DNA from: an uncultured Bacteroidales bacterium
GTDB taxonomy: Bacteria > Bacteroidota > Bacteroidia > Bacteroidales > UBA932
NCBI GenBank assembly: GCA_900319485.1
Contig: ONOQ01000004.1
Location: 51,688 to 115,687, forward strand
DNA: 64,000 bases
Direction: 5' to 3'
Positions 3,246 to 43,303 of the stretch are shown here, piece by piece (positions within the stretch are counted from its first letter, which is position 1; each line of letters begins with the position of its first letter). A program made the position numbers and the translations under genes. The notes below the pieces were generated by a model. The model had not been told where the DNA came from. It ran no database searches and saw only the letters and a program-made list of their open reading frames with translations.

Positions 3246-3264
3246 TTATTTTTACCTTATTTTT

Positions 3265-3669: not shown

Positions 3670-3690
3670 TCTGCGTCAGCGTCTCTAAAG

Positions 3691-3737: not shown

Positions 3738-3739
3738 TG

Positions 3740-3782
3740 CCACCTCCGTCCGGGATTTCGGCCTTTTTCCCGGATGGGGTGG
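3740..3782 (+). repeat. Second GC-rich hairpin
   Basis: CCACCTCCGTCCGGG (3740-3754) pairs imperfectly with CCCGGATGGGGTGG (3769-3782) around the loop ATTTCGGCCTTTTT. It shares the CCGTCCGG core with the preceding terminator stem, so it may be a diverged duplicate. There is no T-tract after it on either side. Confidence 0.5.
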
Positions 3783-3994
3783 CGTCCTGCCCGGCCCCAT
3801 TTCTTCCCAAGGTCTTTCAGAGAAGCACCGACAAGATATACGGCGCTGTCCAGAATATGGAAACGGTGTGTAAACAAGCGTCATTGTAAGACTAAGGCAT
3901 TGAAATACATTTCCCCGCAACGCATCCGGGTGATAATGCATCTATATAAAAGAATTGGTAAGGACTTAAATCAACATAAAGAACTAACACTCAA

Positions 3995-4591: not shown

Positions 4592-4651
4592 TATAGCCGT
4601 CCGGGTGAAGGTTGTTGATAACTTTTTTCGGTGAATTCCGCTGAAAAAAGC

Positions 4652-4659
4652 TATCTTTG
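4652..4659 (+). promoter_or_regulatory. -7 box of dnaE, almost on the start codon
   Basis: TATCTTTG is a full match to TAnnTTTG and ends five bases before the dnaE ATG at 4665. With the usual 5-7 nt spacing to the start site, the mRNA would begin at or within a base or two of the ATG. That suggests a leaderless message. No -33 element is obvious. Confidence 0.55.
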
Positions 4660-4664
4660 TTCCT

Positions 4665-8312: not shown

Positions 8313-8318
8313 GGGCGT

Positions 8319-21932: not shown

Positions 21933-24900
21933 ATGAAACACAAAGTAGTCCAATTTCTCCGACTGGCTGCTGTCACGTGTCTTCTGGCCATTCTGGGCGG
22001 CGTTCCGGCCTTCTCCCAGAGAGGCGTCACCGTCAAGGGTACGGTAATAGACAATGACGGTCTTCCGGTTATCGGCGCCGCGGTTACCATAAAGGGGACC
22101 ACAAACGGTGTTGCCGCCGGGGCGGACGGATCATTTGTGATCACTGTCCCCGGAGAGACTGCTGTTATTGAGGTTTCTGCCCTTGGCTATTCAACCCAGG
22201 AGGTGAAAATCGGCAAACAGCGGACACTGACGGTGGTTCTTCAGGACGATACCCAGTCCATTGAAGCTACCGTGGTGGTGGCGTATGGTACCCAGACCAA
22301 AGCAACGGTTACCGGTGCCCTTACCACCATTGATTCAAAAACCCTGGTGAAGGCGCCTGTGGCCGACGTTACCAACGTGCTGGCCGGTCAGATGCCCGGT
22401 GTGTCCACCATCCAGGAAACCGGTCAGCCCGGTGAGGACTACGCCAAGATCTACATCCGTGGCGTGGGTTCCCTCAGTGAAAGCGCTTCAACCCCGCTCA
22501 TCCTGGTAGATGGCGTGGAGCGTCCCCTCAACACCGTAGACCCCAATGAAATCGAGAGCCTGTCCATCCTCAAGGATGCTGCTTCAACCGCAGTGTTCGG
22601 TGTGAGGGGCGCTAACGGCGTCATCATCGTCACCACAAAACGCGGTGATACCGGCAAGCCCAAGATTTCCGTAAGCTCCATTACCGGTGTCCAGATGCCC
22701 ATGTCCTACATCAAGCAGAGTAACGCCTACGACTTCGCGCGTTATTACAATGTTTACCAGTGGAATGACGGCAAGGAACAGCAGGACCTCTACTTCACGC
22801 CGGAAGCCATCGAGGCATACCGTACGGGATCTGATCCTATCATGTTCCCCAGCACTAACTGGAACGAGGTGATGTTCCGCAAGGCATTCCTCCAGACCAA
22901 GAACAACATCAACATTTCTGGTGGATCGGACAAGGTGCGTTACTTTGTCTCCATGGGTTATATGTTCCAGAACGGCCTCCTGAAGGCCATTCCGGGAGTT
23001 GACTATGACAACAACTACACCTACAACCGATACAACTACCGCGCAAACCTGGACTTCAAGCTTACGGAGACCACGGATATGCACTTCAACATAAGCGGTG
23101 TTATCGGAGACACCCACGAGCCCTACAATGACCGTGACAACATCTGGACGCTCACCATGCTGTGGGCCCATCCTGTAGGCAGCCCCGGTGTTGTGGGAGA
23201 TCAGGTATTCACCAGTGTATCCACCAGCGCCCTTCCTTCCGGTCTTACCAAGTGGAACGGCTGGGAGTACTACTATATGAGTGGTTACACGGACAAGTAC
23301 AAGACCACCCTTGGGATGGACCTTACCATCAACCAGAAACTGGACTTCATAACGGAAGGCCTGAGTGCCAGCATCCGCGGTTCCTATGACGCCTCCATGT
23401 CTATGACAAAGAAGCGTATCGGCGGAAGCGGCCTTCACTACACCTATGAGTACGATTCCTGGACAAAGGACTCACCAACTTACGGTCTTCCCATTAACGA
23501 TCCCGACTTTGACAAGACCTACAAGGTCATCGTGAGTGATTCAGAGGCTCCCCTGAGCTGGAAGGATCCCGACACCGACGACGACAAGAGCTGGTATCTT
23601 GAAGGCCGAATCGACTACAGCCGCAAGTTCGCCCACGCACATAATGTGAGCGCCCTGCTCCTTTACAACCAGTCCCGCGACTACTATCCTTCAAAGTATT
23701 CTTACCTTCCTCGTGGTTATGTGGGCTTTGTGGGCCGCGTAACTTACGGATACAAAGACAAATATCTGGTAGACTTCAGCGCCGGTTACAACGGCTCGGA
23801 AAACTTCGCCCCCGGAAAAACCCGTTACGGTTTCTTCCCGTCCGCTTCAGTTGGCTGGGTAATCTCAGAAGAAAAGTTTATGAAGAGGGTAGGGTTCGTG
23901 GACTTCCTCAAGATCCGCGGATCAATCGGCCTTGTAGGTAATGACCAGGGCCAATCCACCCGATTTATGTATATGGAAGGGACGTGGAACGAGGAAGGCT
24001 CCTACTACTTTGGAACCAATAATTCAGGCGGCGTTCCCCGCTATGAACTTGGTACTCCCGGCAACCTCGGTATTACCTGGGAAAAGGCCCTCAAGTCTAA
24101 TATCGGCCTTGATATGGACCTCTTTGGAAAAAGGCTCCATTTCTCCGGAGATATCTTCAACGAGCGCCGTACTAACATCCTTGTGAAGCCAAATTCACTT
24201 CCCGGCGTCATAGCGTTCACTCCCCAGAATATGAACAGGGGTGAGGTCAATAACTCCGGTTACGAGGTTGAACTGGGCTGGAGGGACCACATCGGCGACT
24301 TTACGTATGACATCAACGCCAATGTGACCTTTGCCCGCAACAAGATTATCTTTATGGACGAGGTAGATCCCGCAGAGCCTTACCAGGCCCAGACAGGCGG
24401 CTCTACCAACCGTCACCTCCTCTATATCTTCGATCGCCTTTACCAGAAGTCAGATTTCATTACCGACGAAAACGGTAACCGCGTCCTGAATCCTGAACTT
24501 CCCCAGCCGGCCGGCACAGTTTACCCCGGAGACTGTAAGTACAAGGACCTCAACGGTGATATGAAGGTTGACGGTCTTGACAAGATGTACACCGGCTTCC
24601 CGGATCGTCCGGAATATGTGTTCGGTTCCAACTGGAAGTTTGGATACAAGGGCTTCAACCTTGCCCTCAACTGGGTTGCTGCAACCAATGTGAACCGTGT
24701 ATGGAACGCAGACTATCGTATTCCTTTCACCAACTCCGGTCACCGCGGCCTGCTCCAGATGTTCGCAGAGCGCAGCTGGATTGACAATGACAACCCGTGG
24801 GCTCCGGGACGTGAAGACGGAGACCTCCCGCGTTTCACCAAGACCAACTATCCCTGGAACTCTGAAGATTCCACCCTATGGACCGTCGATGCCAGTTACC

Positions 24901-25115
24901 TGCGTCTGAAGAGCGCCAGCTTTGGCTACACCTTCTCCCGCAACAGATTCTTCGATAAACTTGGAATTGGCTCATTTGGTATTATGTTTACCGGTTACAA
25001 CATCTTCACCATATCCAAGATGACCCTCCAGGACCCTGAGGCCAAGTCCTCAAGCTCGGCAGGTACCTATCCTCTGGTGAAGACCTACAACCTGTCCATC
25101 AACATCAACTTCTAA
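21933..25115 (+). CDS. SusC/RagA TonB-linked outer-membrane transporter 1
   Basis: A 1060-residue TonB-dependent transporter of the SusC family, which pulls oligosaccharides across the outer membrane using TonB energy. The signal peptide ends PAFSQ. A CarboxypepD_reg-like domain follows (about 30-110, VTVKGTVIDNDGLPVIGAAVTIKG). The TonB box/plug region includes VVVAYGTQTKATVTGA, then IYIRGVGSL, PLILVDGVERPLNTVDPNEI and the SusC hallmark ILKDAASTAVFGVRGANGVI. The remaining residues form the 22-strand barrel, ending in NLSININF. The partner SusD gene starts 11 bp downstream. This pair is full length and is probably the main importer of chitin-type oligosaccharides. Confidence 0.96.
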   Translation: MKHKVVQFLRLAAVTCLLAILGGVPAFSQRGVTVKGTVIDNDGLPVIGAAVTIKGTTNGVAAGADGSFVITVPGETAVIEVSALGYSTQEVKIGKQRTLTVVLQDDTQSIEATVVVAYGTQTKATVTGALTTIDSKTLVKAPVADVTNVLAGQMPGVSTIQETGQPGEDYAKIYIRGVGSLSESASTPLILVDGVERPLNTVDPNEIESLSILKDAASTAVFGVRGANGVIIVTTKRGDTGKPKISVSSITGVQMPMSYIKQSNAYDFARYYNVYQWNDGKEQQDLYFTPEAIEAYRTGSDPIMFPSTNWNEVMFRKAFLQTKNNINISGGSDKVRYFVSMGYMFQNGLLKAIPGVDYDNNYTYNRYNYRANLDFKLTETTDMHFNISGVIGDTHEPYNDRDNIWTLTMLWAHPVGSPGVVGDQVFTSVSTSALPSGLTKWNGWEYYYMSGYTDKYKTTLGMDLTINQKLDFITEGLSASIRGSYDASMSMTKKRIGGSGLHYTYEYDSWTKDSPTYGLPINDPDFDKTYKVIVSDSEAPLSWKDPDTDDDKSWYLEGRIDYSRKFAHAHNVSALLLYNQSRDYYPSKYSYLPRGYVGFVGRVTYGYKDKYLVDFSAGYNGSENFAPGKTRYGFFPSASVGWVISEEKFMKRVGFVDFLKIRGSIGLVGNDQGQSTRFMYMEGTWNEEGSYYFGTNNSGGVPRYELGTPGNLGITWEKALKSNIGLDMDLFGKRLHFSGDIFNERRTNILVKPNSLPGVIAFTPQNMNRGEVNNSGYEVELGWRDHIGDFTYDINANVTFARNKIIFMDEVDPAEPYQAQTGGSTNRHLLYIFDRLYQKSDFITDENGNRVLNPELPQPAGTVYPGDCKYKDLNGDMKVDGLDKMYTGFPDRPEYVFGSNWKFGYKGFNLALNWVAATNVNRVWNADYRIPFTNSGHRGLLQMFAERSWIDNDNPWAPGREDGDLPRFTKTNYPWNSEDSTLWTVDASYLRLKSASFGYTFSRNRFFDKLGIGSFGIMFTGYNIFTISKMTLQDPEAKSSSSAGTYPLVKTYNLSININF

Positions 25116-25126
25116 AAGGCTGCACA

Positions 25127-27013
25127 ATGAAAAAGACAATTCAAATACTTATCATAGCCCTGCTGGCAGTGGGTGCGGCCTCCTGCGAAAGCCTCAAGCT
25201 CGGCGATGCCGGCCTCAGCAGAGCCCCGGAGACATCCGGAGCCACTCTGGATACTCTCTTCGCATCCATCAAGGATGCCGACAAAGTCCTTACATCGGCC
25301 TACTACTATCTTCCTTACGGCCTGATTTCCGACTTTGACAGCAAGATGGGTAAGGATATCCTTGAATCTATTACAGACCACTTCGTTTCCAACAAACATA
25401 CGGAAGGCGACGGTCCCAACGACCTCTACTACACCGGCGCCCTTGGAGCAAATATCTCCGGAGACTCAGCTGGCGGTGAAGCCTATCGTTTTGGAGGAGA
25501 GAAGGATTATAACACCATCCGTTACGCCTGGTTCTTCCTTGAGAATGCCGACAGGATTCCGGAAAATTCCAAGGACTTCAACGCGGCGGAACTCGCAAGG
25601 AAGAAGGCCGAGGCCAAAATGTGCCTCGCAATTGCCTATGCCAATATGGTCCGTTATCTGGGCGGCGTTCCCATCATAGACCACCATATTGAAACCAGTG
25701 AGGAAATGCATTTCCCCCGCAACACTTTTGCAGAGACAATAGATTTCATCGTTAGGATGTGCGACGAAGCCGCCCCGGATCTTCCCTGGAGCGTGCCTGC
25801 CACCGAAGACGGCCGTCTCACAAGAGCTGCCGCTTACGGCCTTAAACTCCGCATCCTTTGCTTTGCGGCATCTCCCACCTTCAACTCAGACACGCCATGG
25901 CATCCTGCCGCGGCCGATTGGGAGAATATGGGCAAGTATGTCCGCTATGGCCAGAACTATGACAAAGGTCTCTGGGACAAGGCTAAGGCTGCTGCCGATG
26001 AATTCATGAGCGGACTTGCTTCCGGCGGATTCTACGGCCTTGTACAGGCAGTTCCTACCGGCGTGGATCCTGTTAACGGTCCCTACTGCACTCCAAGGGA
26101 CTACCGCCTTGCATATCGTGACGCCTATAATAAGCGCGGCACCATAGAGAGCATCATCTCCGTGCGCAAGAGCAACAGTACCAGCTATCACGACAAAAAT
26201 ATGGACCTCCAGGACGACTTCGGATGCGGCGCCACCCTTAATTGGGTGAACAAGTTCCCCTATGCCGACGGAACTCCCTTCCCGGAGGACTTCGACTGGA
26301 GCAACCCCACTTCCGGCGGCCCCGACAGGAATCCCTTCTTCAAAGCCGATGTCCAGGGGCAGCTCAATGTGGACAACAGCCTCTTCACGGAAACCCGTGA
26401 CCCCCGCCTCTATGAGAACGTCTGCGTTCCCGGTGACAAGTGGAAGAACGGCAACGTAGGTCCCACTTACACCAACGCCAAGAGTCCCAGTTTCCAGGAC
26501 GGCAACACCGGCTTCCTGCAGATGAAGTTTATCATGCAGCAGGACAATGACCGCAACACTCCTCCTCACTGGTGCCTTATGCGTTATGCGGAGGTTCTCC
26601 TTAACGCCGCCGAGGCCTACAACGAGTCCAACGGTGGTCCCGACGCAAAGGCCGAGTCCTGGCTCAACGCCGTGCGTGCCCGCGTGGGCCTTCCTCCCGT
26701 GGCAACCGGAATGACCAAGGAGCAGTTCCGCGACGCCCTCATACTCGAGCGTGAACTTGAGTTCGGCTTTGAGGAAGTGCGCTGGTTTGACATGGTCCGC
26801 TGGGGCCTCAAGGACGCATTTACCACAAAGCTCAAGGGCCTGGATGTGGTTGGTAACAAGAGCGCCAACTCCACCAGCTTCACCTTTAAGGTCAAGGATG
26901 CATATCCTCCCAGGGCCTGGTACAACGGCTTTGATACCAAGTGGTATCTTACTCCTATCCCCGCCGTAGAGATTAACAAGGGCTACGGTATGACTCAGAA
27001 TCCGGGTTGGTAA
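25127..27013 (+). CDS. SusD/RagB surface glycan-binding lipoprotein 1
   Basis: A 628-residue SusD-like lipoprotein, the lid of the upstream SusC transporter. The signal peptide MKKTIQILIIALLAVGAASCES has its lipidation cysteine in AASC. Helical TPR-type scaffold segments are visible, including ARKKAEAKMCLAIAYANMVRYLGG and the typical LNAAEAYNESNGG and LNAVRARVGLPPV. The C-terminal family signature FRDALILERELEFGFEEVRWFDMVRWG is present, and the protein ends PGW, as SusD proteins commonly do. It is 11 bp after SusC 1 and 7 bp before SusC 2. Confidence 0.95.
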   Translation: MKKTIQILIIALLAVGAASCESLKLGDAGLSRAPETSGATLDTLFASIKDADKVLTSAYYYLPYGLISDFDSKMGKDILESITDHFVSNKHTEGDGPNDLYYTGALGANISGDSAGGEAYRFGGEKDYNTIRYAWFFLENADRIPENSKDFNAAELARKKAEAKMCLAIAYANMVRYLGGVPIIDHHIETSEEMHFPRNTFAETIDFIVRMCDEAAPDLPWSVPATEDGRLTRAAAYGLKLRILCFAASPTFNSDTPWHPAAADWENMGKYVRYGQNYDKGLWDKAKAAADEFMSGLASGGFYGLVQAVPTGVDPVNGPYCTPRDYRLAYRDAYNKRGTIESIISVRKSNSTSYHDKNMDLQDDFGCGATLNWVNKFPYADGTPFPEDFDWSNPTSGGPDRNPFFKADVQGQLNVDNSLFTETRDPRLYENVCVPGDKWKNGNVGPTYTNAKSPSFQDGNTGFLQMKFIMQQDNDRNTPPHWCLMRYAEVLLNAAEAYNESNGGPDAKAESWLNAVRARVGLPPVATGMTKEQFRDALILERELEFGFEEVRWFDMVRWGLKDAFTTKLKGLDVVGNKSANSTSFTFKVKDAYPPRAWYNGFDTKWYLTPIPAVEINKGYGMTQNPGW

Positions 27014-27020
27014 TCTTAAA

Positions 27021-29765
27021 ATGTACCCGAAGATGAAAAGACTATATACATACATCATACTTCCTTTGCTGTTGGTTTCGATGGCCGCTTCCGCACAGGA
27101 CATCATGGCTCCGACGTGTCAGATCGATTCGATTGACCTTGGAAACATGTTCCACCTGCAGGCTGCCTCAAACGTATCAGCCGGCTCCGAGATTTTTGAC
27201 AGGAGCCCCGAAGTGGACATTGCCAAGGCTCTGTACGGACAGCTGTCCGGCCTCCTTGTAAAGCAGGGAACAGGCCGCAGTGAGGACAACCAGTCCAAGC
27301 TTCGTCTCCACGGTCACAGTCCGCTTATCCTGGTGGATGGTTTTGTACGTGAACTGAACGATATCACCGGTTTGGAGATTGAGTCGGTAACGGTACTTAA
27401 AGACGCCGCCGCTATGGCTCTGTATGGAGTGAAGGGCGCCAACGGAGTGGTAATGATAACCACAAAGCGCGGCCAGGATACTCCGCTCAAGGTGTCGGTC
27501 AAATATCAGTACGGCCTGGCTCTGGCCACCCGCACGCCCAAGTTTGCCGATGCCTATACTTATGCATATTATGTGAACCAGGCCAGTCAGCTTGATGGTC
27601 TTGCCCCACGTTACTCCAATACGGACTTGAACGGTTTTTACAGCACCGTGGGCGGCGCGGCCGATGCCAACCCCTACGCATATCCTAACGTAGACTGGTG
27701 GAACCAGATTTACCGTAACCACGGAGACAACCACCGCGCCCAGTTTACATTCACCGGCGGTAACCGTAACTTCCGTTACTATGCCGCAGTGGATTATGTA
27801 AAAAACAACGCTATGTATGTGACCCCGTCATCGGACAACCGCTACAACGGCCATGTCTATGACAACCGTCTCAGCATCCGCACCAATGTCGATGTCAATA
27901 TCACCAGGTCTACCGCGATGAAGATTGGCGTTATGGCACGTCTGTGGGAGGACAACAAGCCCTATTATATGAGGAGCGGCTCCATCGAGGAAGACATTTA
28001 CAACCTCCCGGCGGCGGCCTATCCCATTAAGCAGGAAGACGGGACCTACGGCGGAAGCGCCTTCTTCAAGACCAAGAACCCCGTGGCAAGCTTCCAGGAG
28101 TCCGGCCAAAACCAGTATTTCCGTCCCAAGGTTCTTGCCGATGTAACGCTGCGTCAGGACTTCGGCGCCCTGGTGAAAGGATTATCGGCCGATATTGCCG
28201 TAGCCTTCGACTACATTGGCAAGATGACGGAGACCGCCACCAAAGACTACCGTTACGCAGAGCTGGTAGGAGGTGCGCTCACTTACTACGGAACAGACTC
28301 CAAGACCATTGATTACAGCCACTGGTTCAGCAGCCTTTCAATGAAATTCGATATGATGGCCCGCGTCAATTACGTCCGCGGCTTTGGAGACCACCACATT
28401 GAAGGTCACCTGGCTTATCGCCAGCGTTCCTGGATCGAGGCAGAGCGCAACGCCTCTTCCAAGACTCAGGAAATTTTCGGAACCGCCAGTTACAATTGGA
28501 AGCAGCGCGTATTCGCGGACCTCGTCCTGAACTATTCAGGATCGGCCTATCTTGCCCCCGGCAAGCGCTTCAACTTCTATCCTGCACTCAGCGTGTCCGG
28601 CATCATTTCCAAGGATCCGTATGTGAAGGCATTCGGTTCAATCGGCCTTTCCGGCAGCGACGGAGACCTGGAGCATGAACTTTGGCGCCAGAATTACGGC
28701 TCATCTAACGGCCATAGCTATAACTTCACCCTCCCTGTAGAGAGTTATTCCGGCCGCGCAGAAGGAAATATGGCAGCCCTTACGCTTGCCCCCGAACAAG
28801 CCGCAACGGCAACCTTGGGCGCCGAGACCCGCCTCTTTGGCAACCGCCTTTATGCCCGTCTGGAAGGCTTCCTTGAAGACCGCACCAAGATTCTGATAGA
28901 ACCCTCCAACGTGTCCGGAGTCCTTGGTGTGGAGATGAACGCCCAGAGCCTCGGTGAGTACAAGTATGCCGGCGCAGACCTTTCCCTTGCGTGGGATGAC
29001 AAAATAGGAGATTTCTCCTATGGCGTCTATGGCAATGCCGGCCTCCTTGGCTCAAAGGTTATAGATGACGGCCAGGCTTTCCAGGCTTACGATTACCTCT
29101 ACCACAAGGGCAACCCCGTGGGTCAGTGCTATGGCCTTGAGGTGGTGGGCTTCTTCAAGGATGAGGCCGATATAGCAGCCAGCCCCGAGCAGCGCTTCGG
29201 AGATGTGCGCCCCGGAGACATCAAGTACAAGGACCAGAATGGCGACGGCGTCATCGACAGCCAGGACAAGGTAAAGCTGATGACCTCCACAACGCCTATG
29301 CTCCAGTACGGATTCGGCCTTCACGCCGCCTGGAAGGGCCTCCAGTTCTATGCCGATTTCCAGGGCGTGGCGGGTGTCACCTTGAGCCTTCTTGACTCTC
29401 CGCTGTACCAGCCGCTCACATCCAGCAACAGCACAATCTCCACAACTTACCTGAGCCGTGAGATTCCGTGGACGCCGGAAACCGCAGACCGCGCTACCAT
29501 GCCCCGCCTTACCACTCAGTCAGGAGAGAACAACTTCCGCTCCAATTCCCTGTATTACCGCGACGGTTCATTCCTCAAGCTCCGTAATATAGGAATCTCC
29601 TATACAATCCCCAGAAGCATCCTCAGGATTTGTGATGCTAACGTGTCCCTGAACGCCACCAACCTGTTCAGCGCCGACACAATCCAGTTTGCAGATCCGG
29701 AGCAGCTTGGAGCCAACTATCCAACCACCCGTGTCTTCTGGGCCGGTGTAAAGTTCAACTTCTAA
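27021..29765 (+). CDS. SusC-like transporter 2, without N-terminal extension
   Basis: A 914-residue SusC/RagA homologue. Two in-frame starts are possible, 27021 and 27033; the second gives the neater signal peptide MKRLYTYIILPLLLVSMAASAQ. The roughly 80-residue CarboxypepD_reg domain of ordinary SusC proteins is absent, so the mature chain enters the plug almost at once. Plug motifs are ALYGQLSGLLVKQG, PLILVDGFVRELNDITGLEI and VLKDAAAMALYGVKGANGVV, followed by the barrel ending GVKFNF. The plug is complete, so this is probably a functional variant, not a remnant. It is paired with the SusD-like gene 13 bp downstream and may take a different oligomer length or a modified form. Confidence 0.92.
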   Translation: MYPKMKRLYTYIILPLLLVSMAASAQDIMAPTCQIDSIDLGNMFHLQAASNVSAGSEIFDRSPEVDIAKALYGQLSGLLVKQGTGRSEDNQSKLRLHGHSPLILVDGFVRELNDITGLEIESVTVLKDAAAMALYGVKGANGVVMITTKRGQDTPLKVSVKYQYGLALATRTPKFADAYTYAYYVNQASQLDGLAPRYSNTDLNGFYSTVGGAADANPYAYPNVDWWNQIYRNHGDNHRAQFTFTGGNRNFRYYAAVDYVKNNAMYVTPSSDNRYNGHVYDNRLSIRTNVDVNITRSTAMKIGVMARLWEDNKPYYMRSGSIEEDIYNLPAAAYPIKQEDGTYGGSAFFKTKNPVASFQESGQNQYFRPKVLADVTLRQDFGALVKGLSADIAVAFDYIGKMTETATKDYRYAELVGGALTYYGTDSKTIDYSHWFSSLSMKFDMMARVNYVRGFGDHHIEGHLAYRQRSWIEAERNASSKTQEIFGTASYNWKQRVFADLVLNYSGSAYLAPGKRFNFYPALSVSGIISKDPYVKAFGSIGLSGSDGDLEHELWRQNYGSSNGHSYNFTLPVESYSGRAEGNMAALTLAPEQAATATLGAETRLFGNRLYARLEGFLEDRTKILIEPSNVSGVLGVEMNAQSLGEYKYAGADLSLAWDDKIGDFSYGVYGNAGLLGSKVIDDGQAFQAYDYLYHKGNPVGQCYGLEVVGFFKDEADIAASPEQRFGDVRPGDIKYKDQNGDGVIDSQDKVKLMTSTTPMLQYGFGLHAAWKGLQFYADFQGVAGVTLSLLDSPLYQPLTSSNSTISTTYLSREIPWTPETADRATMPRLTTQSGENNFRSNSLYYRDGSFLKLRNIGISYTIPRSILRICDANVSLNATNLFSADTIQFADPEQLGANYPTTRVFWAGVKFNF

Positions 29766-29778
29766 ACCGGGAAACGAA

Positions 29779-31479
29779 ATGAAAAAGATTATTTACATAC
29801 TTTCCACAGTTCTGCTTGCAGCAGGCTGCCATTTCCTGGATTTCGATGAGACATCATCGCTCTACGACAGGGACGACATGTACTCCACGTACAGTAATAT
29901 CCAGAAGATGCTCACAAACGTCTATGGATATATGCCTTGCAAGGATATCGCCGATGTAAGCAGCGCGCTCAGGGACTGCGGCTCGGATGATGCAGAGTAT
30001 GCAGACCCCGATGCCTCCGTCCAGCTGTTTACCAACGGCAACTGGAGCGCAGTCCAGACCGTAGACACTAAGTGGACGTTCTATAACGCAATCCGCTCGG
30101 CCAATGAGTTCCTGGAGTCCATGAAAACCGCAGATATCTCAAGGTATCAATACGACACCAAGTATCCCGGATATATGGAACATATGGCCCTGTTCCCCTA
30201 TGAGGCCAGGACTCTCCGCGCTTTCTACCTGTTTGAGCTTGCCCGCCGTTACGGGGACATAGCGATGCCGGTAGACGTGATGCTTACCACGGAGCAGGCA
30301 AATTCAATAGGAAAAACATCCTTTGACGATGTTGTAAAATACATTGCCGAAGAATGTGACACCTGCGCCAAATATCTCCCGGATACCTATATCGGTATAC
30401 TTGACGACGAATACGGCCGCGTTACCAGAGGTTTTGCCAAGGCTCTCAAGACCAAGGCCCTTCTTTATGCCGCCAGCCCGCTTCACAATTCGGCGTCTGA
30501 TGTGGAGAAGTGGAAGAAAGCCGGTTTCGCCGCAAAGGAGGTGATTGAGCTTAAGAGCGGTAACGGTACCCCCGTCTATGTCCTTGACCCCGCAGAGAAA
30601 GCCAACAACATCATTCCTTCTCCGGAGGTTATTCTCCAAATCATGCGCTCTGAGAGCAACAGCTTTGAGAAGTACAACTTCCCCGTAAGATTTACTATGG
30701 GGCAGCGCACTTCAATGGCAGGAACCTATCCTACGCAGAACCTGGTGGATGCCTTCCAGACAATTGGAGGATACGACGTAACCCTTGGGGCCGATGGCTG
30801 GCACAGCGCCGATCCCGCCTTCAACCCCGCCGATCCTTACGGCGGCCGTGATCCCCGCCTTGCCCGTGCCGTCCTTGCCGACGGAATGGCGTTCAAGGGC
30901 TCCGTCATTGACGTGAGCGTAGGTGGTGCAGACTATTCCGCCACCAGACAGGACCTTGGCTCTCCAACCGGCTATTACCTCCGCAAGTACATCATCGAAT
31001 CCTGTGACTTCACTCCTGAAGCCGAGGTCTCCGGCAAGCACAGCTGGATCGTATCCCGCTATGCCGAAATCCTCCTCAGCTATGCCGAGGCTGTGAACGA
31101 GGTCCTGGGCCCGGACGGTACAGACGCCGACTTTACCCTCAGCGCCCGCGAGGCCCTTAACCAGGTTCGCGCCAATGCCGGAATGCCCAACGTGACAGTT
31201 GGCGGCAAGGATGAGTTCCGCAAGGCTGTACAGCGTGAATGGCGCGTGGAATTTGCCTTTGAAGACCATCGTTTCTGGGATGTCCGCCGTTGGAAAATTG
31301 CGGCCGATACCCAGAAGTCTGTTTCCGGTGTGGAAATCACAAATGCTGGCGGAACAAAAACCTATGCCCGCAAGCTTGTGGAGAACCGCACCTGGGACGA
31401 CAAGATGTACCTCTATCCCATCCCTCAGTCCGAGCTGTTCTGCAACCCTAACCTTGGGCCTCAAAACCCCGGATGGTAG
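29779..31479 (+). CDS. SusD/RagB surface glycan-binding lipoprotein 2
   Basis: A 566-residue SusD homologue with a clear lipobox (LLAAGC, Cys17). The N-terminal SusD-like segment includes YDRDDMYSTYSNIQKMLTNVYGYM. Further scaffold motifs are LRAFYLFELARRYGDIAMP, AKALKTKALLYAASPLHN and EILLSYAEAVNEV. The C-terminal signature is VQREWRVEFAFEDHRFWDVRRWK, ending NPGW. It partners the preceding SusC-like gene. Sequence is clearly diverged from the first SusD, so the two pairs probably bind different ligands instead of being a recent duplication. Confidence 0.93.
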   Translation: MKKIIYILSTVLLAAGCHFLDFDETSSLYDRDDMYSTYSNIQKMLTNVYGYMPCKDIADVSSALRDCGSDDAEYADPDASVQLFTNGNWSAVQTVDTKWTFYNAIRSANEFLESMKTADISRYQYDTKYPGYMEHMALFPYEARTLRAFYLFELARRYGDIAMPVDVMLTTEQANSIGKTSFDDVVKYIAEECDTCAKYLPDTYIGILDDEYGRVTRGFAKALKTKALLYAASPLHNSASDVEKWKKAGFAAKEVIELKSGNGTPVYVLDPAEKANNIIPSPEVILQIMRSESNSFEKYNFPVRFTMGQRTSMAGTYPTQNLVDAFQTIGGYDVTLGADGWHSADPAFNPADPYGGRDPRLARAVLADGMAFKGSVIDVSVGGADYSATRQDLGSPTGYYLRKYIIESCDFTPEAEVSGKHSWIVSRYAEILLSYAEAVNEVLGPDGTDADFTLSAREALNQVRANAGMPNVTVGGKDEFRKAVQREWRVEFAFEDHRFWDVRRWKIAADTQKSVSGVEITNAGGTKTYARKLVENRTWDDKMYLYPIPQSELFCNPNLGPQNPGW

Positions 31480-31506: not shown

Positions 31507-33075
31507 ATGAAACAGATATTTCATTTCATTTTGATTGGTTTCACTCTTTCGGCAATGTTTGCCGGCTGCTCATCCAAAAATGAGATTCCTCAGGCGAACA
31601 AGGATGTTGTAGAGCTCCGTTACCGTGTAGAGAGCGAATACCAGCTTCCAGCCAGGGACGCGGCCCCCTTCACCATCGTGGTGAAATCCAGCCGTCCCTG
31701 GAGCATAGCCAGCCAGCACCCGGACTGGTGCATCATCGGCCAGGAGGAAGGTGAGGCGGTAGATGGCGCCCTGGTACATGAGGGAAAGGGCGAAAGCACT
31801 TCCGTGAAGGTCCAGTACTACGACAACACAGACCTGGACGACCGAATAGACAAAATTGAGATAGCCAGCGATTATCTGGTGGCAAAGACCGTTACGGTTT
31901 ACCAGAGGGGTATCGCTTACCTCAATGTTCCTGAGGCCGATATAGAAGGCGGTTTGTTTGTAGAAAAGCCCCAGGGCTCCGTGACCATCAACATAAAGGC
32001 CAACCAGAAGTGGAGCACCAAGATCCTTCCTTATGAGGGTGGAACAACGGACTGGCTTTCAATTTCCGAGGGTGAAACCGGAGAACTTGACGGCACCGTC
32101 ACGGTGGCAGTCAAGGAGAATACCGGCGAAAAGCGCTATGCTTTCGTAGGTGTCTATGACCGTCACGACGAAGAACGTGCAATGATCAAGATAACCCAGG
32201 ACGGTGTCCAGCTGGATCCGGAAGCCTTTGAAATCCGCCTTGGCTATGATCAGGTTGCCGCAACCCTCCACGTGGTTTCCAACAGCGCATGGGTGGTGGA
32301 AAAACAGGGAGAGTCAGACTGGTTCAGTATTGACAATCCTACCGGCCACAATAATGACGGAGACTTCTCCATCACGGTGCAGCCAAACCCGGACGGAAAA
32401 GCACTCCGTAAGGGCGTGGTTACAATCAAGACCGTCCCCACAAATTCGGGGGATCCCGTGATTGAGAAGGAAATAGCCATCAAGCAGGCGTATCCTATCA
32501 ACCCCGTACGCGTGGTTATGAACAATGATGTTATGGGCTCCTGGAGTTCCGACTGGGCTAATGCTCCCATATTCACAGAGGGCGTTGGAACGCTCTTCAC
32601 GTCCAAGGCACGTCTACACAACGGAGAGATGAAGTTTGGAACCTACTCGTTCCGCTGGAAAGACTGGACGGACGATGTCCGTATCCGTCACTGGTTCTGC
32701 TTCTCCAAGAGCGCGGAACTCAAGATTGACGTACGTCCCACCAAGCCGTATATCAGCTTTGACTTCAACGCCCCTGACGGCCTTGACACCCAGAAACCCT
32801 CAATCATCTACTCCTATGATGCCATAGACTGGTCCAAGCCCGTTGAGGTAACTGTCAAGTTTGACCCCAGCGGAACTGAATACTGTCATGTTACCTACCT
32901 GTGCAACGGTGTTGAGATGGCGTCCTTCGACACTTCCGAAAACACCATGTGCACAACAACGTGGGGCAGCGACATCAATATGTACATTGGCGCAGACCTT
33001 GAATCAGGAAAGACTGCCGGCAGCGCTGTCCTTGAATGGTATGAGTACACTGAGCCTATCAATTGGGATAATTAA
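31507..33075 (+). CDS. BACON-domain surface lipoprotein (SusE/F position)
   Basis: A 522-residue lipoprotein; the lipobox is in SAMFAGCSS. Three consecutive BACON-type beta-sandwich repeats are visible at about 36-145, 150-240 and 243-350. Each ends with the usual KTVTVYQRG, AMIKITQDG or KEIAIKQAY strand and carries a Trp near its start (RPWSIAS, QKWSTKI, SAWVVEK). The C-terminal 170 residues form a further beta-rich module (FGTYSFRWKDWTDDVRIRHWFCFS, then VLEWYEYTEPI). It may be a concanavalin-like binding domain, but I cannot assign it. Position after two SusCD pairs and the architecture fit a surface glycan-binding protein that holds the polymer. Confidence 0.85.
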   Translation: MKQIFHFILIGFTLSAMFAGCSSKNEIPQANKDVVELRYRVESEYQLPARDAAPFTIVVKSSRPWSIASQHPDWCIIGQEEGEAVDGALVHEGKGESTSVKVQYYDNTDLDDRIDKIEIASDYLVAKTVTVYQRGIAYLNVPEADIEGGLFVEKPQGSVTINIKANQKWSTKILPYEGGTTDWLSISEGETGELDGTVTVAVKENTGEKRYAFVGVYDRHDEERAMIKITQDGVQLDPEAFEIRLGYDQVAATLHVVSNSAWVVEKQGESDWFSIDNPTGHNNDGDFSITVQPNPDGKALRKGVVTIKTVPTNSGDPVIEKEIAIKQAYPINPVRVVMNNDVMGSWSSDWANAPIFTEGVGTLFTSKARLHNGEMKFGTYSFRWKDWTDDVRIRHWFCFSKSAELKIDVRPTKPYISFDFNAPDGLDTQKPSIIYSYDAIDWSKPVEVTVKFDPSGTEYCHVTYLCNGVEMASFDTSENTMCTTTWGSDINMYIGADLESGKTAGSAVLEWYEYTEPINWDN

Positions 33076-33088: not shown

Positions 33089-34933
33089 ATGAAAAAGATA
33101 TTTGCAAGTTTAGCAATCCTTTCAACCGTGGCCGTCCTCTTCTCATGTGCCCAAAAGGAAAACACCCCCTCAGGTGGTGAAACTCCCGGGAAAAAGCAGG
33201 AAGTGGAGCCCGTCTCCCTGCCTCTTACCTTTGTCCTTCCAGCCAATGCTGAAAAAACAGCCTGGGTGGCGGGAGACAAGATAGTTGTGCATGGAGAATA
33301 TGCAAAAGACCAGGTGACCGTAACCCTTGCCGCCGGAGATATCAGCTCCGACGGCAAGACGGCCAGCCTTACCGTAGATGGCCTCAAGCCCTATGTCCGT
33401 GAGGATGTGGGGAGCACCCTGTATGCCGGCTATCCGGCCGATGCCGTGGACCTTCTGCCCCACTGCTTCTTCTACACCAAGTTCAATACGTCCAACCGTT
33501 ATCTTCTTGCGGCCTGCAATGATGCCCAGAACAAGTTCCAGTTTATGGAGGTCTGTTCCCGTCTCAGTTTCTCCGTAAACGGCGATTTTGACTCTTATGC
33601 CATTACCGGCAGGAAAGACGCCGTAACGGGATACGAAGCCTTGCAGGTGAAGATTACTGATAAGGAGCAGAACCTGAACCAGTACCGTCAGGGAGCCCTG
33701 GTAACCGTAACAGGAAAACTGGCTTCCGGCGCCCAGGCAATCTATGTCCCCGCCGGCACTGTTCTTCCCAGCGGTTTTGACCTGAAGTTCTTCAAGGACG
33801 GCGAGGCCAAGAAGGTTTACACTGAAAAGGAAGAGGTCTCCTTTAAGGAGAGTGGCCTGGACCTTGGTGACATTACTGCAGACCTGACAGGGTTCCAGCA
33901 GGCCATCGATGTGACCAAGGCGGTGAACCTTGCTCCTGACGGCAACGCCAACTGCTATATTGTTACAGAGCCGGGAATCTATAAGTTCCCTACGGTGAAG
34001 GGTAACAGTTCAAAATCAGTTGGCTCCGTAGAAAGCACAAATGTGTTATGGGAGACCTGGAACAATGGAGAAACCGTGACAGAGGGCAGCCTCATAAGCA
34101 TCACCATGTTCGAGGGAGGCCAGTTCTACTTTGAGGTTCCTTCACCGTTCCATGCCGGTAACGCCCTTGTCGCCGTTCTGGACGAGAATGAGACAATCCT
34201 CTGGAGCTGGCACATCTGGATGCCGGAGACAGCGCCCACTGCAGACGAATACGGTTATGCCGCGGGGTGCAAGATTATGAGCCGCAACCTGGGCGCCCTG
34301 GTGGACACCCAGCCCGGAGTTATGGCCGATCCCCGTTCCTTCGGCCTGTTCTACCAGTGGGGTCGCAAGGATCCGTTCCTGGGCCCGAAGGAAGCCGGCT
34401 CCGACGAATCGGCAACATTCGTGGGAACAGCCATGACAACCTATTCAGAACGCGTTACTCAAGATCAGTCATCTGACGACCTGGAAGATACGGCCGCCAT
34501 GCCCACCACTTTCCTCACGGTCACCGGAGCAGACTGGAATTTGATTGACGACCGCGAAGCCTGGGGAGACCAGGAGCGTTCCAACAAGAAGACCATCTAC
34601 GACCCCTGTCCGTATGGTTACCGTGTAGGAGGACGTAAGCGTGGTCAGTTCTATGAGCCGGACAAGAATCCCGCAGTCGCGGCAACCTTCAGCGCCGACG
34701 TTGAAAAAGCGTATTACCTGATTGGTAATCCGTCTGCGGCATTCCCTCTCTGCGGATATCTCAACGAAGACGGGACTTATTACGCAGACGGCGCGTTGGT
34801 CTGGAACACTCATATGGACCACGATACCGCTAACTCCACATACTGTATGTTGGTGTCAGACGGAGTCCTTAAGAAAGGCCAGAAGTCCCGTTCCATCGGC
34901 GCTTCAATCCGCTGCGAAACCTACGACGAATAG
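33089..34933 (+). CDS. Fimbrillin-like plus FISUMP-like surface lipoprotein
   Basis: A 614-residue lipoprotein starting MKKIFASLAILSTVAVLFSC. The first half (about 45-270) resembles fimbrillin-like modules of Bacteroidales, with the typical opening LTFVLPANAEKTAWVAGDKIVV and a repeated beta pattern. The second half contains a module shared with the next gene: NANCYIVTEPGIYKFPTVKG, LWSWHIWMP, FGLFYQWGRKDPF, IYDPCPYGYRVG and a terminal IRC. I associate this cysteine-containing module with the Fibrobacter succinogenes major paralogous (FISUMP) type, from memory only. Its role in the locus is unknown; presentation on the cell surface and binding of glycan are plausible. The next gene follows after a 58-bp gap with a strong hairpin. 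Confidence 0.75.
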   Translation: MKKIFASLAILSTVAVLFSCAQKENTPSGGETPGKKQEVEPVSLPLTFVLPANAEKTAWVAGDKIVVHGEYAKDQVTVTLAAGDISSDGKTASLTVDGLKPYVREDVGSTLYAGYPADAVDLLPHCFFYTKFNTSNRYLLAACNDAQNKFQFMEVCSRLSFSVNGDFDSYAITGRKDAVTGYEALQVKITDKEQNLNQYRQGALVTVTGKLASGAQAIYVPAGTVLPSGFDLKFFKDGEAKKVYTEKEEVSFKESGLDLGDITADLTGFQQAIDVTKAVNLAPDGNANCYIVTEPGIYKFPTVKGNSSKSVGSVESTNVLWETWNNGETVTEGSLISITMFEGGQFYFEVPSPFHAGNALVAVLDENETILWSWHIWMPETAPTADEYGYAAGCKIMSRNLGALVDTQPGVMADPRSFGLFYQWGRKDPFLGPKEAGSDESATFVGTAMTTYSERVTQDQSSDDLEDTAAMPTTFLTVTGADWNLIDDREAWGDQERSNKKTIYDPCPYGYRVGGRKRGQFYEPDKNPAVAATFSADVEKAYYLIGNPSAAFPLCGYLNEDGTYYADGALVWNTHMDHDTANSTYCMLVSDGVLKKGQKSRSIGASIRCETYDE

Positions 34934-34991: not shown

Positions 34992-36845
34992 ATGAAAAAA
35001 CTGACAGTCTTTTTGGTTGCTTTCCTGGTACCGCTGCTGCTTGCCTGCGGCGGTACCAGGGAGAGTAATCTCCCCGCTCCGCCTCCTCCTTCCTCAGAAG
35101 ACTCCGGGGAGAAGAACGACAACCCCGATAATCCCGGTACTCCCGATAACCCCGGCACGCCGGACAATCCGGGTACCCCGGACACCCCTGACAATCCCAA
35201 TCCTCCGGATCCGTCACTGGCCACTGACCTTGGGCTGAACGGAACTGCCAACAGCTACATCGTAACGTCTGCAGGCAGTTACAAGTTCAAGGCCGTGAAG
35301 GGAAACGGCACCGCGTCGGTGGGAACGGCGGCCTCCGCAGAGATTCTCTGGGGAGGGGAGTGCCTTGAAGACGCCTCGTATTACAACGGGTATGTGATCT
35401 TCTCCACAAAGGAGCCCCTGGTGCCCGGAAATGCCCTTGTGGCAGCCAAAGACGCCTCCGGAACCATTCTCTGGAGCTGGCACATCTGGATACCGAAAAC
35501 GGAAATAGGAGGAGACAAGTACGGATTCTCCTTCTACACCACCATGGACCGTAACCTTGGTGCGATGGAGGTTGCATCGGCCCAGGCCGGAGCAGATTCC
35601 TACGGTCTTCTGTACCAGTGGGGAAGAAAGGATCCGTTCCCGTGTGAAACCCCTTCAAAACGCGCCTCAGGTCCGGTTTCCAGGCAGGAGACAATCTCTC
35701 ATCCGGACACGTTCTATTATGCCGACGGCACCTGGATGAGTTCCGTTGACAAGACTGTCTGGGGAGACGGCGCCACCAAAACCATCTACGACCCCTGTCC
35801 TCCGGGATACAAGGTCCCTATGCGTGAAGACCTTTCCGGTTTCTTCCCCATAGACCCACTTTCGTCGGCCAAGGGCTGGCAATATGCGGCCGGATATGCC
35901 TTTGCCGTGGGTGAACCGCAGGTCTGGTTCCCATACACGGGTTACATAGACGTTACCGGAACCTACGTGGGCGCCGGAACTCAGACCAAGATCTGGAATT
36001 CCCATATGGATTCCGCCAACAACCAGGGCTACGGGGTGTTCCTTAACGGAAGCACTTCTTCAAAGAGTTCCCAGAAGGCGGCCCAGGGCGGCAGCGTAAG
36101 GTGCATTTCCGAGCAGCAGGAGCAGTTCCAGAACAAGCCGGGAATGCCCGTTCAGGGCAGTTATACCCGCAAGGTGTTCGATTCCGGAGTCGAGGAACTC
36201 TCCGGCCTTTGCCTAAGTTGGGATAAAACCTATCTCTGGGGCGTTGGAGACCAGGGGGAACTGTACAAGTTCACTAACCTTGACGGCGGAGTGGACGCCA
36301 TAGCTTATACCAGCGTCTGGACTTATAGTGCCGATATGGAAGGCGTAACCATAGACCCCGGATCCACAACGCTTTATCTTGGAATTGAGTCTGACCGCGT
36401 CTACAGGGTGCAGTCACCGTATAATTCAAAAACCACTATCTTTGTCATTGACGATGCCGCAAATATGGGTAATTCAGGCGTTGAGGGAATAACCTGGTAT
36501 AAGGGAGACCTTTACGTCGGCGCCCAGAGCGGGGCAACGCTGTGGCGCTATACCCTTGGGGGAACCAAGGTGTGGAAAAAGCAGCTTGGCGCGCTTGCTC
36601 CGGGAATCAAGGAAGTGGGAGACCTCTTCTATGACTCGGAGACAGACCTTCTCTGGGTGTCGGACTCCGAGGCCTGCAAACTGTTTGTATTTGACGGGGA
36701 GGTAACGGAACTTCAGGCCATCTACGACGTTTCCTTCATCGGGAATGCGGAATCCGTCTGCGTAGACCACCAGCGCGGCTGCGTATGGGTTGGAGACGAC
36801 GGCTCCACCTCCAAGATTTACAAGATTTCTTTCACTGGATTGTAG
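34992..36845 (+). CDS. FISUMP-like lipoprotein with SdiA-regulated-type propeller
   Basis: A 617-residue lipoprotein (VPLLLACGG, Cys19). After the lipid anchor there is a repeat-rich linker of PGTPDN units (about 45-75). Next comes a module parallel to that of the preceding gene: NSYIVTSAGSYKFKAVKG, LWSWHIWIP, YGLLYQWGRKDPFP, IYDPCPPGYKVP and VRCIS (about 80-380). The C-terminal 230 residues have the strand and tryptophan pattern of an SdiA-regulated (YjiK-like) beta-propeller: LSGLCLSWDKTYLWGVGDQG, then MEGVTIDPGSTTLYLGIESD, VEGITWYKGDLYVG and CVDHQRGCVWVGDDG. Such propellers often bind ligands or metals on the surface; no enzymatic motif is evident. The module shared with the upstream gene indicates duplication followed by domain gain. 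Confidence 0.78.
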   Translation: MKKLTVFLVAFLVPLLLACGGTRESNLPAPPPPSSEDSGEKNDNPDNPGTPDNPGTPDNPGTPDTPDNPNPPDPSLATDLGLNGTANSYIVTSAGSYKFKAVKGNGTASVGTAASAEILWGGECLEDASYYNGYVIFSTKEPLVPGNALVAAKDASGTILWSWHIWIPKTEIGGDKYGFSFYTTMDRNLGAMEVASAQAGADSYGLLYQWGRKDPFPCETPSKRASGPVSRQETISHPDTFYYADGTWMSSVDKTVWGDGATKTIYDPCPPGYKVPMREDLSGFFPIDPLSSAKGWQYAAGYAFAVGEPQVWFPYTGYIDVTGTYVGAGTQTKIWNSHMDSANNQGYGVFLNGSTSSKSSQKAAQGGSVRCISEQQEQFQNKPGMPVQGSYTRKVFDSGVEELSGLCLSWDKTYLWGVGDQGELYKFTNLDGGVDAIAYTSVWTYSADMEGVTIDPGSTTLYLGIESDRVYRVQSPYNSKTTIFVIDDAANMGNSGVEGITWYKGDLYVGAQSGATLWRYTLGGTKVWKKQLGALAPGIKEVGDLFYDSETDLLWVSDSEACKLFVFDGEVTELQAIYDVSFIGNAESVCVDHQRGCVWVGDDGSTSKIYKISFTGL

Positions 36846-36857: not shown

Positions 36858-39035
36858 ATGAGAATCAAACACATTCTGGCTCTTATCCTTTTCCCGTTCC
36901 TGCTGGCCTGCGCCGCTCCGGAAAACGGCCCCCTGGTTCCACCGCCGGCTCCGGGTCCCGGAGAGGACACCAACCCCGGCGGGGATGATCCCGATCCAAA
37001 CCCGGGCGGTGATACCCCCGGCACAAATCCCGGAACCCCCGGCGAGTATGTCGTTATCGGCTATGCCACCTACTGGGAAAGCACTATGCCGGACCCCACC
37101 CTGCTTACGCACATCAACTATGCGTTCGGAAAGATCGGCAGTGATTTCGAGACCCTCAAAATCAACACGGATTCCCGTCTGAAAAAGCTTGTCGGCCTCA
37201 AAAAGACCAATCCTTCCCTGAAGGTCCTGCTGTCCATAGGCGGCTGGGGCGCAGGCAATTTCTCCGAGATGGCGGCCGATGAGGGCCACCGCAAAAAGTT
37301 CTGCGAGAACTGCCTCAAGGCGGTGAACCAGTACGGCCTGGACGGCATAGACCTTGACTGGGAGTATCCCACCAGCAGCAGCGCTGGAATATCGTCCTCC
37401 CCTGACGACACAAAGAATTTCACCCTCCTGGTGAAGGACCTCCGTGCAACTCTGGGGGATGGCCTCCTTATCACCATGGCTTCATCGGCCAATGCAAAGT
37501 ATGTGAACTTCAAGGACTTCATAGACTATATGGACTGGGTGAACCTTATGACCTACGATATGGGTAACCCGCCGTATCACAATGCAGGCCTTTACAAGTC
37601 CGCTATGACAAAGCGCAGTTGCGACGAGTCCGTGGCGCTTCACTACACCGCCGGAGTTCCCTATGAGAAGATAGTCCTGGGAATGCCGTTTTATGGCCGC
37701 GACGACCACAACGCCTTCACGGCGGGAGACGACGACAACTATGTCTATTATCATGACATAACCGTGGGTTCCTACGTGGAGCGCTGGGACAGCCAGGCCC
37801 TGGTGCCTTATCTTACCAACGCCGCGGGCACTATGGTCCTCAGTTATGACAACGAGCAGTCCATAAGCCTCAAGGCCAATTACATCAAGGATAAGGGCCT
37901 GAAGGGCGCAATGTACTGGGCAATCGAGGGCGACGACACCAACTGGACGCTGTCCAAGGCCATCGCCGGTCCGCTCCTTGGCTGGACTCCGGACGCATCG
38001 GCCTCTTTCCTCGCCACCAATGCGTATATTGAAAAATATATGTCGGAAGTGGATTACGGCACCAACCTGTCTTATGGCAAGGAAGGCGGTTCCAAGGTAA
38101 AAGGATATCCCGGCGGCGGCCCCAGCGTAAACGACGAAGAACTTCCTCCCACATATACAATCACCTGGACGCCTTCAGGGTCAGGACAGCAGAAACTCAC
38201 CGTTTCAGAGGGAGAATGGAGCAGGGAATACACCCTTTCCTCCAGCGCCTCAAGCCAGGACATCACCAACCTTGTCCCCAATACCACCTATCAGTGGAGG
38301 GTAACTTCCGGAGACGCTGTTGTAGCCAGCGGCAGTTTCCCCACCAGGGGACACCTGCGTCAGGTATATTATGAGCCCAATGTGCGCAATGGCCGTGACC
38401 TTGGCGGTTACAAGGGCTATGGCGGCAAAACCGTGGCATATCACAAACTCTTCCGCGGCGGCGCCATCCACGGCTCCCGCGCCAGTTCAAACGGCCGGAA
38501 GGAAATGCTGGCCGAGGGTATCAAGGCCGAGGTAGACCTCCGTGAGGCCGAAGACGTCCCGTCGTCGTCACCTCTTGGAAGCGATGTGGATTTCTACGCC
38601 CCGGGCTTTGACAGCGGCTACAACGAGATGGTCCGCGACAACCAGCCTAAGGTGAAAGATACATTTATGTGGGTTGTACAGAAACTCCGCGAAGGGAAGC
38701 CGGTCTACTTCCACTGCGCCGCCGGACGTGATCGCACCGCAACGCTTGCCGTTCTCCTGGAAGGGGCCCTGGGCGTAAGCGAGAGCGATATGGCAAAGGA
38801 CTATGAACTTACGTACTTCACTCCCACCGACTGGGGTATGTCAAAGGACGATAACGGCAATTATACGCTGTATAAGCACACCTATGACAACTACAGTTAC
38901 GGTTCCATCCACACCACAATCTTCACGGAGACAGACAGCGGAACCTACCAGGAAAGGATAGTGAAGTATCTCCTAAAGATAGGAGTCCCGCAAAAAGACA
39001 TAGACGACCTACGGTCCATAATGCTCAAGGACTAG
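36858..39035 (+). CDS. GH18 chitinase fused to a cysteine (PTP-type) phosphatase, lipoprotein
   Basis: A 725-residue surface lipoprotein (LLACAAP, Cys18) with three modules. After a Pro/Gly/Asp linker (20-63) comes a GH18 barrel (about 64-375) with SIGGWG, the complete catalytic signature DGIDLDWE (162-169, acid E169) and MTYDMG. A fibronectin type III-like domain spans about 430-497 (LVPNTTYQWRVTSGDAVVASG). Residues 500-725 form a Y_phosphatase3-type protein tyrosine/lipid phosphatase fold. It has the N-terminal NGRDLGGY motif, VDLREAED, and an intact P-loop HCAAGRDRT with nucleophile C620 and R626. Both active sites look competent. The GH18 half resembles the gene at 20654. This is the last gene of the PUL. 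I infer coupled chain cleavage and phosphate removal from an amino-sugar polymer. Confidence 0.9.
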   Translation: MRIKHILALILFPFLLACAAPENGPLVPPPAPGPGEDTNPGGDDPDPNPGGDTPGTNPGTPGEYVVIGYATYWESTMPDPTLLTHINYAFGKIGSDFETLKINTDSRLKKLVGLKKTNPSLKVLLSIGGWGAGNFSEMAADEGHRKKFCENCLKAVNQYGLDGIDLDWEYPTSSSAGISSSPDDTKNFTLLVKDLRATLGDGLLITMASSANAKYVNFKDFIDYMDWVNLMTYDMGNPPYHNAGLYKSAMTKRSCDESVALHYTAGVPYEKIVLGMPFYGRDDHNAFTAGDDDNYVYYHDITVGSYVERWDSQALVPYLTNAAGTMVLSYDNEQSISLKANYIKDKGLKGAMYWAIEGDDTNWTLSKAIAGPLLGWTPDASASFLATNAYIEKYMSEVDYGTNLSYGKEGGSKVKGYPGGGPSVNDEELPPTYTITWTPSGSGQQKLTVSEGEWSREYTLSSSASSQDITNLVPNTTYQWRVTSGDAVVASGSFPTRGHLRQVYYEPNVRNGRDLGGYKGYGGKTVAYHKLFRGGAIHGSRASSNGRKEMLAEGIKAEVDLREAEDVPSSSPLGSDVDFYAPGFDSGYNEMVRDNQPKVKDTFMWVVQKLREGKPVYFHCAAGRDRTATLAVLLEGALGVSESDMAKDYELTYFTPTDWGMSKDDNGNYTLYKHTYDNYSYGSIHTTIFTETDSGTYQERIVKYLLKIGVPQKDIDDLRSIMLKD

Positions 39036-43295: not shown

Positions 43296-43303
43296 AATTC
43301 AGT

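Follow-up and report, generated by a model that had tools for sequence, protein, structure and literature searches.

In the window, by which we mean the whole 64,000-nucleotide stretch of DNA analysed here, one gene encodes a 725-residue protein in which a GH18 glycoside hydrolase domain and a Y_phosphatase3-class cysteine phosphatase domain are joined through a Fn3-like module behind a lipoprotein-like signal peptide. Considering the intact signatures of both halves and the fact that the halves are kept together across many species, a bifunctional enzyme is, by domain anatomy, a well supported proposal. Our preferred reading, to which we assign a probability of roughly 55%, is that the protein acts as a bifunctional cell-envelope lipoprotein in a gut Bacteroidales genus, cutting a chitin- or chitosan-type chain and dephosphorylating the same material. 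Judged by gene content, the fusion gene appears to close an amino-sugar utilisation locus at positions 12425–39035 (Table 1).

Table 1. Features of the window locus and the fusion protein, and sister fusions in relatives (positions prefixed with L refer to loci of other genomes)
Feature	Position	Strand	Evidence
Histidine phosphatase, MINPP-like (His_Phos_2)	12425..13681	+	PF00328 E 2.7e-8; signal peptide by eye
Transcription regulator (Peripla_BP_3 + HTH_18)	13678..14850	+	
GH2, exo-beta-D-glucosaminidase type	14923..17418	+	Ig_GlcNase E 9.8e-16
Alkaline phosphatase	17415..18575	+	PF00245 E 8.3e-70; signal peptide by eye
GH20 beta-hexosaminidase	18572..20647	+	PF00728 E 8.4e-113
Second GH18, lipoprotein-like, DGVDIDWE	20654..21901	+	PF00704 E 7.1e-64
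Two SusC/SusD-type pairs	21933..31479 (21933-25115, 25127-27013, 27021-29765, 29779-31479)	+	second SusC-like protein by Plug domain only
BACON-domain lipoprotein	31507..33075	+	PF13004 E 1e-16
Lipoprotein, family unassigned	33089..34933	+	no Pfam match up to E 1
Lipoprotein, C-terminal third a weak Phytase-like / SdiA-regulated propeller	34992..36845	+	
GH18 - Fn3-like - Y_phosphatase3 fusion protein, 725 aa	36858..39035	+	single ORF, Pfam, 37-row alignment, model
Lipoprotein-like signal peptide, Cys at residue 18	36858..36911	+	by eye, C18 conservation
GH18 domain, residues 66-359	37053..37934	+	PF00704 E 3.5e-67
Fn3-like module, ~residues 433-497	38154..38348	+	model strands, Foldseek; fn3 below cut-off
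Y_phosphatase3 domain, residues 508-723	38379..39026	+	PF13350 E 5.7e-26
GH2 (exo-glucosaminidase type)-AlkP	L116:5434-9024	-	also L117-L122; seven genomes, ~1,195 aa
HisPhos-GH20, 1,086 aa	L123:13465-16722; L124:9931-13188	-; -	two genomes; both halves over Pfam cut-off
GH92-HisPhos, 1,276 aa	L125:2808-6635	+	both halves over Pfam cut-off

The open reading frame runs uninterrupted from its ATG through 725 codons, and the frame opposite it on the reverse strand is interrupted by stops. The first-pass annotation had placed a GH18 signature and a phosphatase P-loop on this one chain, and both are where it put them. DGIDLDWE occupies residues 162–169 (nucleotides 37341–37364) within a Glyco_hydro_18 match of 227.7 bits, against a cut-off of 29.6, that covers the PF00704 profile over essentially its whole length (positions 2–317 of 317). 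HCAAGRDRT, of the form HCxxGxxR[ST], occupies residues 619–627 (C620, R626; nucleotides 38712–38738) within a Y_phosphatase3 match of 92.4 bits against a curated cut-off of 22.2, and the phosphatase half also carries NGRDLGGY and a DLRE stretch at 38535–38546. In an alignment of 37 fused rows, D162, D165, D167, W168, E169, Y233, D234 and W354 of the GH18 half and H619, C620, R624, D625, R626 and T627 of the phosphatase half are invariant. As the annotation also held, the N-terminus, MRIKHILALILFPFLLACAAP, has to the eye the look of a lipoprotein signal, with a lipobox cysteine in LLAC at residues 15–18, and C18 is conserved in at least 90% of the same rows. The claimed Fn3 linker fared less well: the Pfam fn3 match (residues 433–484, E 0.002) reaches 18.7 bits against a cut-off of 25, yet both predicted models place a beta sandwich there that resembles fibronectin type III domains (2h41, E 2.3e-4, Foldseek), and we call the module Fn3-like on predicted structure alone.

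The AlphaFold2 model of the full chain, computed from the alignment of fused rows, has a mean pLDDT of 83.2 and a pTM of 0.73, with residues 18–61 below 50; we read it domain by domain, and not for the relative placement of the two catalytic domains. Among the matches listed by Foldseek against the PDB, the closest solved folds to the GH18 half are chitinases, headed by 6bt9 (E 2.1e-31) and 6t9m, the CotE chitinase domain (E 3.3e-30, TM 0.81 on target). The CotE domain, Paenibacillus ChiW (5gzt/5gzu) and chitinase D (4lgx) share fold and DxxDxDxE with our protein, but unlike it have no phosphatase in their database descriptions. The C-terminal 345 residues, modelled separately (pLDDT 88.5, pTM 0.90), adopt a predicted PTP fold; absence of a phosphatase fold was one of the outcomes that the annotation had named as refuting it, another being separately encoded halves joined by an assembly error. 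This model matches a Clostridioides difficile protein tyrosine phosphatase (8dhj, E 7.7e-9; 8dhi, E 8.2e-9) and Mycobacterium tuberculosis PtpB (1ywf, E 3.7e-8) with modest TM-scores of 0.5–0.6 on target. Fold and HCxAGxDRT loop are common to 8dhi, 1ywf and the fusion, whereas identity is only ~20%, the loop Arg here is Lys in those two, and here the domain is tied to a Fn3-like module and a GH18 domain.

The same architecture, sought in other Bacteroidales as the annotation had suggested, recurs full-length, as 45 copies in all, in 43 of the 400 genomes compared from its genus. Incomplete fusions occur in four further genomes, those in G281, G314 and G318 ending at contig ends; in the copy G375:C1 (L051/L091) a frame change interrupts the C-terminal half. 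Contigs of named genomes yielded 17 loci with both halves, 16 of them unbroken and from several projects, a set partly identical to records among the 400 genomes and therefore no independent count; these genomes are labelled Bacteroidales or Bacteroidia, and some come from goat reticulum and from the rumen of water buffalo and yak. The 36 aligned relatives are 51 to 90% identical to the window protein. Across 42 distinct fused ORFs, a number that excludes the broken L051 (a smaller locus set had 39 including it), DxxDxDxE is intact in all, the P-loop in 41, L092 stopping at a contig end, and DLRE in 41, L130 deviating. No GH18-PTP fusion was found outside the genus in 101 genomes of 41 genera, nor among 393 genomes of the order with at most two candidates scored per genome; both searches are samples from which a strongly diverged second half may escape, and the order set includes three same-genus genomes (G000, G270, G350), the fusion occurring in G000 alone. 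The best matches outside the genus were GH18 genes with up to 54% identity in the order set; of two long frames inspected there, that of G706 is a 342-aa GH18 with no PTP match and that of G670 a GH18-ThuA protein.

Some fused copies have diverged unequally from the window protein in their two halves: L047 is 77% identical in GH18 and 47% in PTP, L037 65% and 90%, and L036–L038 generally are uneven, as if halves had perhaps been exchanged.

Close stand-alone relatives of both halves also occur. In L094, for example, GH18, propeller, Fn3-PTP and alkaline phosphatase (AlkP) are four adjoining genes, the last three by Pfam. The alignment of stand-alone PTP proteins with the fusion begins near residue 383, and thus the fused phosphatase half takes in the stretch preceding the Fn3-like module. 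Fused rows group together in the domain trees, with 7 label changes in the GH18 tree (85 rows) and 6 in the PTP tree (60 rows), and none of 500 shuffles was equally low; the trees were built by a quick method with SH-aLRT support only, the broken L051 entering as two pieces. This clustering in both trees would fit one old fusion followed by splits or losses.

Turning to the surroundings, the SusC/SusD pairs lie beside glycosidases on one strand, the arrangement of a polysaccharide utilisation locus. The GH2 protein aligns over residues 35–827 with 2vzs, which we take to be CsxA, at E 7.2e-98, including the catalytic GSD and FN[ST]ET stretches, against E 1.6e-25 for the best beta-mannosidase, and we reject a beta-mannosidase assignment on this ground. 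Enzymes of the exo-beta-D-glucosaminidase class take glucosamine off chitosan. The combination of a CsxA-like GH2 with GH18 and GH20 speaks for a GlcNAc polymer, deacetylated in part, as the substrate of the locus. In contrast to CsxA, the window GH2 sits in a Sus-type locus and has AlkP-fused counterparts in seven relatives; in two relatives, L116 and L115, a ROK-family gene adjoins the GH2 gene. The alkaline phosphatase matches 2w5v (E 3.2e-63) and carries DSCAGGTA. The histidine phosphatase, with RHGSR and GHD motifs, matches 7r5y (E 1.8e-42) and MINPP chains (E 6.1e-37 to 2e-35) in the PDB; compared with the multiple inositol polyphosphate phosphatases 4fdt and 5cu7 (E ~1e-36), it differs in lying in an amino-sugar locus and in being fused to GH20 in two relatives. 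By eye, both GH18 proteins look like lipoproteins and the GH2, alkaline phosphatase and histidine phosphatase like secreted forms, which would be in line with cutting at the surface and finishing in the periplasm. The two lipoproteins preceding the fusion gene are matched jointly by relatives. The propeller of the second gives E 0.0023 and 0.0088 in the window, under the cut-off, compared with 3.4e-8 in L106 and 3.6e-10 in L094, over it; in L094, L104, L106 and L115 this Phytase-like/SdiA-regulated propeller stands alone or is fused to GH18, GH2 or an unknown N-terminal part. The chitin utilisation locus of Flavobacterium johnsoniae likewise has SusC/D pairs with GH18 and GH20, whereas phosphatases and a glucosaminidase are added here. 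Beyond the fusion gene, cytochrome c assembly protein, di-haem oxidoreductase and imelysin genes stand in a row on the minus strand (39466–44518).

Phosphatases accompany the fusion elsewhere in the genus. AlkP matches occur in all 43 fusion-bearing genomes and His_Phos_2 matches in 35 of them (32 over the cut-off). With the AlkP rows beyond E 4.9e-40 and duplicate fragments of histidine phosphatase (HisPhos) genes set aside, one or the other lies within 5 kb of at least 14 of the 45 fusion copies, where ~1.3 would be expected, and within 30 kb of at least 24, where ~5.8 would be; the expectation is a rough yardstick and too low, as it takes positions as random, omits the weaker rows and ignores common descent. 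For the other 21 copies no AlkP or HisPhos lies within 30 kb among the matches listed, some of the contigs being short. By blastp, the genes flanking the fusions of L045, L046, L048 and L052 resemble nothing in the window locus.

Other glycosidases of such loci are themselves fused to phosphatases; the loci surveyed were chosen for fusion relatives or phosphatases, and the counts that follow are not frequencies. GH2-AlkP fusions number seven distinct ORFs of 1,190–1,201 aa by blastp, with the motifs of both halves in all seven and both halves over the Pfam cut-off in L116 and L119; none was found outside the genus among 296 genomes of the phylum with at most two candidates scored in each. HisPhos is fused to GH20 and, in one case, to GH92 (Table 1), and stands unfused in G113:C1. 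We see a pattern in this: in one kind of locus, members of three glycosidase families have been joined to phosphatases of three classes. Phosphatases are not the only partners: a strict blastp filter returned six GH18-propeller ORFs, including the partial L058_02, and further ones are in L042, L050, L104 and L135, the propeller match being under the cut-off in all three scanned (L104, L049, L130); one ORF, in L115, joins GH2 to the propeller with both halves over the Pfam cut-off. All three ~600-aa ORFs scanned in L144, L145 and L146, GH18 relatives with ~47–50% identity, are GH18-ThuA proteins, and GH18 genes of this group therefore join non-phosphatase partners too.

From these domains, predicted folds, conserved motifs, locus contents and recurrent fusions we infer both activities, their location, the substrate and the order of steps as follows. 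The GH18 half would cut beta-1,4 chains rich in N-acetylglucosamine, by the chitinase-type mechanism expected from its family, and the phosphatase half would strip phosphomonoesters from the same material. The two SusC/SusD pairs might then take up the freed oligosaccharides. Dephosphorylation would be completed in the periplasm by the alkaline and MINPP-like phosphatases, with GH20 removing GlcNAc and the CsxA-like GH2 removing glucosamine. The food is most likely a partly deacetylated, phosphate-bearing chitin or chitosan such as that of a fungal wall. Chitosan, chitin and polyphosphates are named as main ingredients of zygomycete walls in a paper that gives a phosphate content of 8.3 to 23.3% for Mucor indicus, in passages that do not settle whether this phosphate is sugar-bound (PMC5037708). 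The earlier proposal of a bifunctional enzyme trimming a phosphorylated amino-sugar glycan stands as far as the anatomy goes, and its glycan part, still interpretive, gains support from an amino-sugar locus with two further phosphatases and from GH2 and GH20 partners fused to phosphatases in relatives.

Several points weigh against our preferred reading: polyphosphate is a phosphoanhydride and no sugar phosphomonoester, 21 fusion copies have no listed phosphatase match nearby, some copies have unrelated surroundings, each half has close stand-alone relatives, and GH18 genes of this group also take other partners. In one alternative, the phosphate is not on the sugar chain at all: the phosphatases might act on inositol phosphates or short polyphosphates bound by cationic chitosan, the GH18 half cutting the chain and the phosphatase half releasing phosphate and thereby opening it. 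We consider this unlikely, though it is the alternative that we take most seriously. The closeness of the locus histidine phosphatase to MINPP-type inositol phosphatases speaks for it, as do the recurrence of Phytase-like propellers in these loci and, according to the paper cited above, the holding of polyphosphate in chitosan walls (PMC5037708). The propeller match in the window, however, is under the cut-off. In addition, PTP-type domains are, to our knowledge, not known as polyphosphatases, which counts against this scenario. Given the MINPP-like and phytase-like neighbours, inositol phosphates are a possible substrate.

Fusion of neighbouring genes need not mean that their products share a substrate, and an ordinary chitinase may simply carry a lipoprotein phosphatase whose task is to dephosphorylate proteins or lipids or to scavenge phosphate. 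Stand-alone Y_phosphatase3 lipoproteins are common in the genus, some of them away from GH18 genes, and the GH18-ThuA fusions suggest that the joining may be loose. On the other hand, the fusion has been retained with intact motifs over the whole identity range of its relatives, and glycosidases from this kind of locus are also found fused to phosphatases of other classes; we regard a merely tethered phosphatase as improbable, a little more so than phosphate held as a counter-ion. Far less credible is a locus for N-glycans, in which the GH18 half would be an endoglycosidase on mannose-phosphate N-glycan cores and the GH2 a beta-mannosidase. An EndoS TIM-barrel profile does match the GH18 half at 28.2 bits, barely over its cut-off of 27, and the genus has the GH92-HisPhos fusion, but the GH2 is far closer to exo-glucosaminidase, the structural neighbours of the GH18 half among the matches listed are chitinases, and the Pfam scan of the locus genes returned no alpha-mannosidase family. 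An assembly or annotation artefact, suggested by the frame-broken G375:C1 copy and by relatives that encode the halves separately, as the annotation had foreseen, is rejected with near certainty on the recurrence of full-length copies in the 43 genomes and the unbroken named loci from several projects.

Returning to a joint action on one phosphorylated chain, we may ask what it would mean. Both GH18 and Y_phosphatase3 are known families; a search of the open-access literature, with most subscription journals outside its scope, found neither their combination nor the sister fusions. Loci pairing sulfatases with glycosidases for sulfated glycans are well known, and we know of hardly any description of a parallel logic for phosphate. 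Perhaps these are members of a locus class with which gut Bacteroidales use a GlcNAc polymer, phosphorylated and deacetylated in part, that is as yet undescribed as food; each glycosidase step would have a phosphatase partner, the partners differing in fold, and such pairs would have fused repeatedly (GH18-PTP, GH2-AlkP, HisPhos-GH20); this wider generalisation we put forward tentatively, with somewhat less than even confidence. If true, the fusion, within a single genus, of three unrelated phosphatase classes to glycosidases that serve the same pathway would suggest that herbivore guts contain an amino-sugar material bearing phosphate, and that there are enzymes which free its sugar and phosphate jointly. 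With the fusions at hand, the phosphate-glycan reading is directly testable.

Lastly, a few further proteins of the survey deserve mention. A beta-helix protein at L126:5170-8088 (minus strand) is fused to a histidine phosphatase-like domain barely under the cut-off. L147:1546-3435 and L148:1350-3269 (both minus strand) encode Y_phosphatase3 proteins of 630–640 aa in which Pfam assigns no family to the first ~300 residues at E 0.01. In L097 (G000:C46, ~661–9752), two stand-alone PTP genes lie near GatZ/KbaZ-like, SIS-domain, PfkB and melibiase-like genes, and by its gene content it looks like another sugar-phosphate locus.
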